From the NCBI GenBank assembly GCA_026400755.1, contig JAPLOM010000048.1, positions 7,085 to 68,103 of the forward strand: DNA of 61,019 nt, read 5' to 3'. Below are positions 961-4,643 of the stretch, piece by piece. Both the position numbers and the translations under genes were made by a program. The notes beneath the pieces are model-generated. The model saw nothing but the letters and a program-made list of their open reading frames with translations. It made no database searches and was not told the DNA's origin. Origin of the DNA: Alphaproteobacteria bacterium. Lineage in GTDB: Bacteria; Pseudomonadota; Alphaproteobacteria; CADEGL01. Within the stretch, counting starts at the first letter, position 1; each line of letters begins with the position of its first letter.

Positions 961-1722
961 TTAGATCGGCAGCAGCCACGCCTTCTCAGAAACGTTGCGG
1001 CGCATCGATTCGGCCTGCTGGGACTCGAACGGCCCGGCGACCACGCGATACATCTTCCGTCCATCGATCGTGGCCGTGATCACACGCGTTCCCTTAGCCG
1101 CGTTGGATGCCGCGGCAGCGCGCTCCGCATCCTGGAAGCTGCCCAGCACAACCAGCACCTTTCGTCCGTTACCGGCGGGCGCGGCGACCGGAGCAGGCGC
1201 CAAGGAGGCCGTCCGCGCATTGACGGGCACCGTCGCCCTGGGCGGGCTGGACGCGCGAATCGGTTGCACGGTCGCCACCGGCTGGGTGGGCAAGGGCGCA
1301 GCGGGGGCGATGGCGGCGACCTGCGGCGCGGGTGCTGGAGCAGGCAAGCTTTCGGTGGCGATCGCGGCCTCGGGCGCCTTCTCCGGCGCAGGCGCGGGCG
1401 AGACACCAACCGGTGTCATCGCGGGGGGCGCAAAGGCCAGGGCGCCATTGCCGGGGGCATAGAGCACCGCATGCGCGCCCGTCCCCTTAGGCTCGACGCA
1501 GACCGGTTTTTCTTTCACCACCCGCCAGACGGCGCAATCTTCCCCGGTGACCACAGATAAAGCGTGGTCATGGGGCGCTTTGCCGGTCGCCGTATAGCTG
1601 AGCCCGTCGAAGGCCGCCGAGGCGGCGGTGAGGCCCACCGGAATGGCCACGCAGCCCCCCAAAGCGGCCACCACCAGGCCGGCAAAAACCGTATCGCGCG
1701 CGAATCTGGAATCCTTCTGCAC
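961..1722 (-). CDS. SPOR-domain lipoprotein
   Basis: A 253-residue secreted protein. I chose the GTG at 1722 because an AAGGGGAGG Shine-Dalgarno lies 8 bases upstream (1731-1739) and translation from there gives a compact lipoprotein signal ending LGGC (Cys24). A longer frame reaches 1806 but has no such ribosome site. The middle is a long Ala/Pro-rich, low-complexity linker. The last 70 residues form a SPOR domain (KVLVVLGSFQDAERA ... YRVVAGPF), a fold that binds denuded septal peptidoglycan. Inferred role: envelope-anchored cell-division or peptidoglycan-binding protein. It is not clearly RlpA, FtsN or DamX, so no symbol is given. Confidence 0.75.
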   Translation of the reverse strand: MQKDSRFARDTVFAGLVVAALGGCVAIPVGLTAASAAFDGLSYTATGKAPHDHALSVVTGEDCAVWRVVKEKPVCVEPKGTGAHAVLYAPGNGALAFAPPAMTPVGVSPAPAPEKAPEAAIATESLPAPAPAPQVAAIAPAAPLPTQPVATVQPIRASSPPRATVPVNARTASLAPAPVAAPAGNGRKVLVVLGSFQDAERAAAASNAAKGTRVITATIDGRKMYRVVAGPFESQQAESMRRNVSEKAWLLPI

Positions 1723-1796
1723 CGGCAAAACCTCCCCTTGGCAGCCGCCCGGCATGGCCGGAATGTGGCGATAATTGATGCAGGATGAGAATCCTC

Positions 1797-1841
1797 TTTG
1801 ACTCATGTGTCAAATATTTTGTGTACGTCTTTGACTTACAC
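1797..1841. promoter_or_regulatory. AT-rich double palindrome between SPOR lipoprotein and rnd
   Basis: Two inverted repeats stand side by side in an AT-rich patch that is unlike the GC-rich surroundings. TTTGAC-N6-GTCAAA is at 1797-1814. GTGTACGTC-TTT-GACTTACAC (8 of 9 arm bases pair) is at 1821-1841. Both contain a direct TTTGACT repeat. The site lies between the divergent SPOR lipoprotein and rnd genes, so an operator for one or both is plausible. No regulator is identified. A GACTC (GANTC methylation-type) site falls inside the first palindrome. Confidence 0.4.
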
Positions 1842-1858
1842 GCAAAATCTTGTAGATT
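1831..1858 (+). promoter_or_regulatory. Candidate sigma70-type promoter for rnd
   Basis: TTGACT at 1831-1836 and TAGATT at 1853-1858 are separated by 16 bases and precede rnd by about 125 bases. The -35 hexamer lies inside the second palindrome, so a protein bound there would block it. Pattern only; no transcript start is known. Confidence 0.4.
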
Positions 1859-1873
1859 TCTTATCTCATCGCC

Positions 1874-1882
1874 TGTGGATAA
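1874..1882 (-). promoter_or_regulatory. Perfect DnaA box (TTATCCACA on minus strand)
   Basis: TGTGGATAA at 1874-1882 is the exact reverse complement of the consensus high-affinity DnaA box. It sits in the AT-rich stretch upstream of rnd. Only one perfect box is present, so this is more likely a regulatory or titration site than an origin. Confidence 0.4.
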
Positions 1883-1984
1883 GTCCTTGAAAAAGAGTCG
1901 CTTTTTGATCCAGCCGGCGCGGTTTCGGCACCTAGTCGGCACGGAAACATTGCGCGCCGCGCTGCAGCGCTATAGGCCGGTGGC

Positions 1985-3169
1985 ATGACCCCACTCGCCG
2001 ATACCGCGACGCTCGACGCCCTGTGCGCCCGCCTTTCCAAGGCCCCCTACGTCACCGTCGACACCGAGTTCATGCGCGACAAGACCTATTGGCCGCGCCT
2101 GTGCCTGGTCCAGGTCGCCGGGCCGGACGAGGCCGCCGTGATCGACCCCTTGGCGCCCGGCCTGGACCTGGCCCCCTTCCTGCGCCTGATGGCCGACCCG
2201 AACGTGGTCAAGGTGTTCCACGCCGCGCGCCAGGACGTGGAGATTTTCTTCCATCTGACCGGCAAGGTCCCTGCCCCCCTGTTCGACACCCAGATCGCCG
2301 CCATGGTGGCCGGCTTCGGCGAGCAGGTGTCCTACGAAACGCTGGTCGCGCATTTCTCCGGCGCGCGCATCGACAAGTCGTCGCGCTTCACCGACTGGTC
2401 GCATCGGCCGCTTTCGGAGCGCCAGCTCACCTACGCGCTGGCCGACGTCACCCATATGCGCAAGATCTACGAGGCGCTGCAGGCCCAGTTGCAGAAGAAC
2501 AAGCGCGAATCCTGGCTGGCCGAGGAGCTGGCCACGCTGTCGGACCCCGCCACCTATCGCCTGGAGCCCGACGAAGCGTGGCAACGGCTAAAGCCGCGCG
2601 GCATGTCGCCGCGCAGCCTAGCGGTGCTGAAGGAAATTTCAGCCTGGCGCGAACGCGAGGCGCAAAAGCGCGACGTGCCGAGCAACCGCATCGTGCGCGA
2701 CGAGGCGTTGACCGAGATCGCGGCCGGCCGGCCGAAGACCGCGGACGAGCTGGCGCGCGTGCGCGCCCTGTCCCGCGCCATCGCCGACGGGCCGTTCGGA
2801 CGCGAAATCCTGGCAGGCGTAGCACGCGCGCTGGCACTGCCGGAAAAGGACTGCCCCACCCTGCCGGACAGGCCCCAGTTGCCGCGCGGCATCGGGCCCG
2901 CGGTCGAACTGCTCAAAGTCCTGCTCAAGCTCAAAAGCGAACAGCAGCACGTGGCCACCAAGCTGATCGCCAACGTCTCGGACCTCGAGCGGCTGGCGGC
3001 CGGCGAGACCGACCTGCCCGCACTTCACGGCTGGCGTCACGAGGTGTTCGGCGCGGACGCGCTGGCCCTGATCGAGGGGCGTCTAGCCCTGGCCATCTCT
3101 GGCAAGGAGCTAGAAGTGGTTGAGCGGGTGGCGGATACGCCCGTGCGGCCGAAAGCGGCCCGGCGCTGA
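1985..3169 (+). CDS. rnd: Ribonuclease D
   Basis: A 394-residue 3'-5' exoribonuclease that trims tRNA 3' ends. The DEDDy active site is complete: D26 and E28 in VDTEFMRDKTYWPRLCLVQ, D84 in HAARQDVEIF, and Y150-xxx-D154 in LTYALADVTHM. After the exonuclease domain an HRDC domain is visible around residues 205-290 (LKEISAWREREAQKRD ... VPSNRIVRDEAL). Length and domain order are normal. It starts at the ATG following the AT-rich regulatory patch and converges on a minus-strand SDR. Confidence 0.93.
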   Translation: MTPLADTATLDALCARLSKAPYVTVDTEFMRDKTYWPRLCLVQVAGPDEAAVIDPLAPGLDLAPFLRLMADPNVVKVFHAARQDVEIFFHLTGKVPAPLFDTQIAAMVAGFGEQVSYETLVAHFSGARIDKSSRFTDWSHRPLSERQLTYALADVTHMRKIYEALQAQLQKNKRESWLAEELATLSDPATYRLEPDEAWQRLKPRGMSPRSLAVLKEISAWREREAQKRDVPSNRIVRDEALTEIAAGRPKTADELARVRALSRAIADGPFGREILAGVARALALPEKDCPTLPDRPQLPRGIGPAVELLKVLLKLKSEQQHVATKLIANVSDLERLAAGETDLPALHGWRHEVFGADALALIEGRLALAISGKELEVVERVADTPVRPKAARR

Positions 3170-3959: not shown

Positions 3960-4643
3960 TCAGACGTCGATGCCGTGGGAGCGCAGCACGTCGCGCACGA
4001 ACGGCACGGTGATGTTGCGCCGCGCCGACATGGCGGCCTCGTCGATCACGGCCACCATCTTGCGCGCCATGGCGAAGGACCGCTCGATGCGGGCAACCAG
4101 GAAGTCGATCACGCCCGGCCCGACGCGAATCTGCCGGTCGCCGAACATCTTCTCCAGCACGGCCGCGATCAGCGCGTCCTCGGGCTGGCTGACCTCGACC
4201 GAGGGCAGCGCCAAAAGGCGCGAGCGCAGGTCGGGCAGCGACACATCCCAGCGCGCGGGCGCGCGGCGAGCGGTCAGCAGCATCTTGCCGCCTTGCTCGG
4301 CGACATAGTTGTAGAGATGGAGAAACTGCCTGGGGAGCTGTTCGGCCGCGCGGCCGGCGTCGCCGAGAACGAAATGACGGGCGTCGCCCATCAGGCGCGG
4401 CGGATCGGATTCGTCGAGCATGGGCGGCGTCAACAAGACCGCACCCGTGGTGGCGCGGAAGACGTGCGCCAGATGCGTCTTGCCGCAGCCGGGCTCGCCG
4501 TGGATGACCAGCGCGGACGCCGGCCAATCCCGCCAGCGGTCCAGCCACGCCACGGCCTCGCTGTTGCTGGGCGCCACGACGAAATCGTCCATCGCGAGCG
4601 CGGGACGGAATTCGAACTGCAGCGGAAGTTGTTGCGTAATCAA
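3960..4643 (-). CDS. hdaA: DnaA-related regulatory inactivator HdaA
   Basis: A 227-residue AAA+ protein homologous to the central domain of DnaA. It begins with QLPLQF (residues 5-10), the sliding-clamp-binding motif of Hda proteins, followed by Walker A GEPGCGKT (49-56). Hda with the DNA-loaded beta clamp stimulates ATP hydrolysis by DnaA and prevents over-initiation. No DNA-binding domain IV is present, which separates it from DnaA. The start is a TTG at 4643 overlapping the stop of the AI-2E gene (TTGA), with AAGG seven bases upstream. It ends an operon running from the DUF2066 gene. Confidence 0.87.
   Translation of the reverse strand: MITQQLPLQFEFRPALAMDDFVVAPSNSEAVAWLDRWRDWPASALVIHGEPGCGKTHLAHVFRATTGAVLLTPPMLDESDPPRLMGDARHFVLGDAGRAAEQLPRQFLHLYNYVAEQGGKMLLTARRAPARWDVSLPDLRSRLLALPSVEVSQPEDALIAAVLEKMFGDRQIRVGPGVIDFLVARIERSFAMARKMVAVIDEAAMSARRNITVPFVRDVLRSHGIDV

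Follow-up and report, generated by a model that had tools for sequence, protein, structure and literature searches.

The window, i.e. the whole stretch of 61,019 nucleotides that was analysed, opens with a reading frame for a dehydrogenase of the D-isomer type (identified by eye), followed by a gene with a SPOR domain (961–1722, minus strand; Pfam SPOR), an intergenic gap, and rnd, which encodes an RNase D of 394 amino acids (1985–3169, plus strand; an open reading frame with Pfam matches to DNA_pol_A_exo1 and HRDC). The SPOR-domain gene encodes a probable lipoprotein, its start and lipobox being judged by eye. Its longest open reading frame begins at 1806, inside a palindrome described below. 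The start is probably the GTG at 1722–1720, which is preferred over the longer frame because of a Shine-Dalgarno sequence (AGGGGAGG) upstream and a lipoprotein-like N-terminus downstream; both the GTG and the Shine-Dalgarno sequence are kept in the sister species. With this start, the gap between the two genes spans 1723–1984 (262 bp), in which a search for RNA families and tRNAs returned no match. A gene for HdaA (3960–4643, minus strand; Pfam Hda_lid match) lies about 2 kb away, in agreement with the original prediction, and the sequences named there are all present: two palindromes at 1797–1814 and 1821–1841, a GACTC at 1800–1804, and the DnaA box TGTGGATAA at 1874–1882.

For comparison, five genomes were used, which constitute the whole family and likewise the whole order in the set: the genome of the window itself (G000), a sister species (G001), a member of a second genus (G002), and two members of a third genus (G003 and G004). 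The AT-rich island predicted within a GC-rich window is real, with a GC content of 0.369 (1790–1900) compared to 0.657 for the window, and the GC minimum of the 68-kb contig falls into the gap (0.34 over 100 bp, the next-lowest value being 0.44). The gap likewise holds the lowest-GC 100 bp of the surrounding stretch in all five genomes, runs of N aside, with minima of 0.34, 0.35, 0.35, 0.38 and 0.30 from G000 to G004. Across 468 kb of G000 sequence, 11 windows reach a GC content of 0.37 or below, nearly all of them outside gene calls; the islands elsewhere are mostly intergenic and near gene starts, e.g. of pstS-like and oxyR/ahpC-like genes (by eye). Such islands are therefore a normal class of promoter in this genome. 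Gene calls for the 468-kb counts and for the noncoding comparisons were made with a home-made rule based on third-position GC, which left a spurious ORF of 55 amino acids over the gap and counted the DnaA box at rnd as coding, a miscount that is of no help to the argument for DnaA.

A scan of 1500–2200 for sigma-70 promoters returned a single site on the plus strand (1831–1858), with a −35 TTGACT (1831–1836), a spacer of 16 nucleotides, and a −10 TAGATT (1853–1858). It matches the consensus at 9 of 12 positions, with 0.2 such sites expected. This is the only sigma-70-like site in the range, and the palindromes overlap it as had been claimed. Three-way alignment displays conservation in G001 and G002 of the TTG of the −35 and of a TTGTA beside the −10. 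Between genes, TTGAC is not enriched (ratio 0.94 in 468 kb); thus, the assignment of the −35 relies on the scan result and its sequence conservation. From this site, the rnd transcript would start near 1865, about 7 bases past the −10. The rightward half of a divergent promoter pair, with both a −35 and a −10, is thereby predicted. A possible leftward promoter for the SPOR-domain gene was recognized by eye on the minus strand (1785–1813), consisting of a −35 TTGACA (1813–1808), a spacer of 17 nucleotides, and a weak −10 TCTCAT (1790–1785); it lies below the threshold of the scan, and G002 does not retain its −10.

Most of the gap has diverged between the two genera represented by G000, G001 and G002, yet 23 of the 26 positions of an element at 1798–1823 (TTGACTC-NNN-TGTCAAATATTTTGTG) are invariant in the three-way alignment. 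The element would lie at about −67 to −42 of the proposed rnd start. The gaps of G000 and G002 share an exact match of 16 bp, a length reached in none of 3000 local shuffles (maximum 13). In a wider test, a pattern search of the class (385 genomes), the element was found without mismatch in three genomes only (G000, G001 and G002), and only at rnd; with 3 mismatches, six further genomes matched, compared to two matches for the backward control. In the family genomes that carry it, it occurs once, at the rnd gap, plus one partial match with 2 mismatches in G002, and it was not found in the gaps of G003 and G004, though low GC is retained there. Of 19 rnd upstream regions (from 80 loci) that were read by eye, only two loci, both of the family, displayed the element.

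This element contains most of the first palindrome, TTTGAC-N6-GTCAAA (1797–1814), the arms of which (TTGAC/GTCAA) are kept in three of the five family genomes. Read on the minus strand, the right arm is the TTGACA that may serve as −35 of the SPOR-domain gene. The left arm, TTGACTC, is conserved yet has no usable −10 behind it, which calls for another reason for its conservation, either an operator or the GANTC that it contains. In the G000 genome, TTGAC-N6-GTCAA occurs at four places, compared to two for the backward control; apart from the rnd gap, there are two copies within what looks like coding sequence and one in front of an HtpX-like gene (judged by eye), so that no regulon is visible. 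A role as a genome-wide operator was rejected on these grounds. Sites for FNR, CRP, LexA, PhoB, CtrA and IHF were also considered, and none fitted the gap on the basis of their consensus sequences.

The second palindrome, GTGTACGTC-TTT-GACTTACAC (1821–1841), in which 8 of 9 arm pairs match, is lost already in the sister species and is likewise not kept in G002 (alignment). It was rejected as a functional site for its loss in the sister species and is judged to be a chance product of adjacent elements. In addition, CTTTGACT occurs twice in the island (1796–1803 and 1829–1836, 33 bp apart). Chance levels for such features were taken from 1000 dinucleotide shuffles of 1790–1900: an inverted repeat with 6-bp arms arises in 24.5% of shuffles and three or more, as observed, in 2.2%; a repeat with 9-bp arms and one mismatch in 10.5%; a direct repeat of 8 bp in 10.2%; two or more GANTC sites in 13.3%; and a perfect DnaA box in 0.1%. 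Taken singly, only the DnaA box clearly exceeds chance. Conservation in relatives, by which the original prediction was to be judged, thus extends to two genera for the first palindrome and to one genus for the box, and is found nowhere for the second palindrome.

The DnaA box (TTATCCACA on the minus strand, 1874–1882) would be located at about +10 to +18 of the proposed rnd start. It is kept in G001 and absent from G002, G003 and G004: with up to 2 mismatches allowed, the gap upstream of rnd holds no DnaA box in G002 or G003 and one unrelated site with 2 mismatches in G004. No second box within 1 mismatch was found in the gap of G000. As 43% of the other 9-mers in the rnd gap are unchanged in G001, this box taken alone would have had a roughly even chance of surviving there without selection. 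The sequence fits the DnaA-box consensus of Caulobacter, [TC][TCG][AG]TCCACA, as given in the accessible part of the source (PMC2877005), so that the gap contains the kind of box expected of a DnaA-regulated promoter. The suggestion of a possible DnaA control of rnd or the SPOR-domain gene hence finds its box preserved in the sister species and missing from the gaps of G002 and G003. We regard the box as a plausible but putative DnaA target limited to one genus, which could let cell-cycle timing touch a gene for RNA trimming. A literature search for a link between rnd or RNase D and DnaA found nothing.

Throughout the 3.36-Mb assembly of G000, the perfect box TGTGGATAA occurs six times (backward control 17), and each copy is located either upstream of a gene or at its start, the genes being carD, rnd, lexA, dnaE, a DUF4167 gene, and an SLT transglycosylase gene. 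Since 20.3% of 9-mers with this letter composition fall at least partly outside coding sequence (468 kb), the chance for six of six is 0.203^6 = 7e-5. All six also have a counterpart at the orthologous position of G001. In that genome 44% of all noncoding 9-mers, and 57% of noncoding 9-mers with six A/T, are unchanged, which gives a probability of 0.007 to 0.034 for six of six. The box at dnaE is present in four of the five family genomes (G000, G001, G002 and G004; loci L100, L119, L126 and L121), and that at the transglycosylase gene is present also in G002. As a class, the perfect boxes look selected in the family, while the box at rnd taken alone does not pass. The set thus appears to lend some support to the idea of DnaA control, more for dnaE than for rnd.

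Three GANTC sites are located in the gap: GACTC (1800–1804), aligned in G000, G001 and G002; GAGTC (1895–1899), which aligns with a GATTC in G002; and GAATC (1789–1793), kept in G001 only. Two sites are accordingly aligned across three genomes. The gaps from G000 to G004 contain 3, 6, 2, 4 and 1 sites, the stretch counted for G001 running slightly into the SPOR-domain gene. The intergenic ratio of GANTC is 1.64 (468 kb), within the range of seven control palindromes (0.84 to 2.02), i.e. no special enrichment; six of seven aligned noncoding GANTC sites are kept in G001, a sample too small to carry weight. A CcrM-type methylase with a RAMA domain is encoded in all five family genomes (in G000 with N6_N4_Mtase and RAMA matches), and its specificity is presumably GANTC. 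MucR (PF05443) was also found in all five. GcrA (PF07750) was found in none of the five, and the Caulobacter positive control was detected. The Pfam model for GcrA also matches in Sulfolobus acidocaldarius, which is odd for an alphaproteobacterial cell-cycle regulator.

Methylation-dependent control of rnd or the SPOR-domain gene, the other mechanism proposed originally, is therefore unsupported in the manner known from Caulobacter, as GcrA is missing from the family although the CcrM-type methylase is present throughout. Promoters under GcrA/CcrM control, as described in the accessible portions of PMC3667746 and PMC7987155, resemble the rnd gap in combining a GANTC site close to a sigma-70 promoter with a genome that encodes a CcrM-type methylase, and differ in their dependence on GcrA; a reading of methylation by GcrA was rejected for this reason.

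Based on these data, we consider it likely that the gap is a shared divergent sigma-70 promoter region of rnd and the SPOR-domain gene, and a mostly ordinary one. RNA polymerase with the housekeeping sigma factor would start rnd from the predicted TTGACT-16-TAGATT site. For rnd, the AT-rich 26-bp element may be an upstream element or an operator; on the other strand it probably supplies the −35 of the SPOR-domain gene. Points against this reading are the weak and unconserved leftward −10 and the lack of the element in G003 and G004. If the element is an operator, the first palindrome may be bound by a dimeric regulator of the rnd/SPOR pair. Its arms and flank are kept in two genera, and it would be centred near −60 of the proposed rnd start, which is a usual position of an activator; but four genomic sites against two for the control, the lack of a visible regulon, and its absence from the third genus leave us doubtful of such a regulator. 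Still less probable in our view is a coating of the island by MucR, an H-NS-like zinc-finger protein, which by analogy would repress one or both genes and shield GANTC from CcrM. MucR targets are AT-rich according to published abstracts, and in Caulobacter MucR occludes GANTC, as far as the accessible text goes (PMC5172544). The hypomethylated promoters occluded by MucR in Caulobacter and Sinorhizobium that are described there share with the rnd gap an AT-rich sequence, GANTC, and genomes encoding both MucR and a CcrM-type methylase, and the low GC content kept in five gaps while the sequence is not, with GANTC in each of them, would suit this idea. However, low-GC islands are also ordinary promoters in G000, GANTC is not enriched in the rnd gap against shuffles nor especially between genes, and rnd is a housekeeping gene.

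The DnaA box offers a further explanation, by which rnd would be a member of a DnaA regulon, with DnaA-ATP binding at 1874–1882 and repressing rnd around replication initiation, and with HdaA resetting DnaA. DnaA bound just downstream of the proposed start would hinder transcription. This is possible, though we hold it to be rather improbable for rnd. The position of all six perfect boxes at gene starts, their retention in the sister species, and the company of lexA, dnaE, carD, the SLT transglycosylase gene and the DUF4167 gene argue for it, as does the fit to the Caulobacter consensus (PMC2877005) together with the use of single-box promoters there, gcrA and mipZ according to the accessible part of PMC3193534. 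The roughly even chance of survival of the rnd box, its absence from three of the five genomes, and the lack of a second box argue against it. The Caulobacter crescentus promoters regulated by DnaA (gcrA, ftsZ, podJ, mipZ and hdaA in the accessible portions of PMC3193534 and PMC8203912) are likewise alphaproteobacterial and have a perfect box near a sigma-70 promoter, whereas in the present case GcrA is absent and the box would lie downstream of the start; rnd is not among the targets in those portions. Under the divergent-promoter reading, the rnd box, if used, would serve for tuning and would have been acquired or retained in this genus alone, a notion that we find conceivable without favouring it. 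If DnaA does act on rnd, this would be a first hint of a replication-linked control of RNase D.

An AT-rich island with a perfect DnaA box, low GC being kept across the family, might also be taken for the chromosomal replication origin, which we consider extremely improbable. The gap has a single box within 1 mismatch and none in G002 to G004, and the sign of the GC skew is unchanged across it (−0.011 to the left, −0.023 to the right); with neither a cluster of boxes nor a switch in skew, the gap was rejected as oriC. Moreover, two TGTTTCACGTGAAACA sites, which we take to be parS-like, lie 30 bp apart on another contig of G000 (C62, 172149 and 172179) in the gap between mnmE and mnmG, a region that is likely origin-proximal. 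Very AT-rich stretches with a perfect DnaA box were seen in G002 (L104:1380–1610, GC 0.21) and G003 (L105:1390–1530, GC 0.29); the one in G002, beside hslU, is an origin candidate. The hslU region of G000 (7.5 kb) contains no 100-bp stretch below a GC content of 0.54.

With respect to the set of boxes as a whole, we tentatively hypothesize, while thinking it improbable, that in this uncultured family of alphaproteobacteria, which lacks GcrA and keeps CcrM, a few promoters with perfect boxes are under the direct control of DnaA, namely those of dnaE, lexA, carD, the SLT transglycosylase gene, the DUF4167 gene and, in one genus, rnd. Replication initiation would then be coupled directly to DNA synthesis, the SOS response, the cell wall and RNA maturation, with no GcrA step in between as there is in Caulobacter. 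Should the set be real, it would supply a small number of direct DnaA targets that can be tested in a lineage lacking GcrA, and the best one to examine first would be dnaE, rather than rnd, its box being present in four of five genomes. A literature search for DnaA boxes with dnaE and lexA in alphaproteobacteria found nothing.

Further observations concern individual boxes. In G002 and G004 the dnaE box and a TTTTCCACA located a few bases from it face each other as an inverted pair. In front of an sdhC-like gene, G000 has no perfect box; such a box is present in G001, G002 and G004 (L127, L133 and L109), which belong to three genera, and G002 and G004 have additional near-boxes there. The lexA box directly abuts the start codon (TTATCCAC-ATG; L099:1501 and L103), and binding of DnaA might therefore interfere with the expression of lexA.
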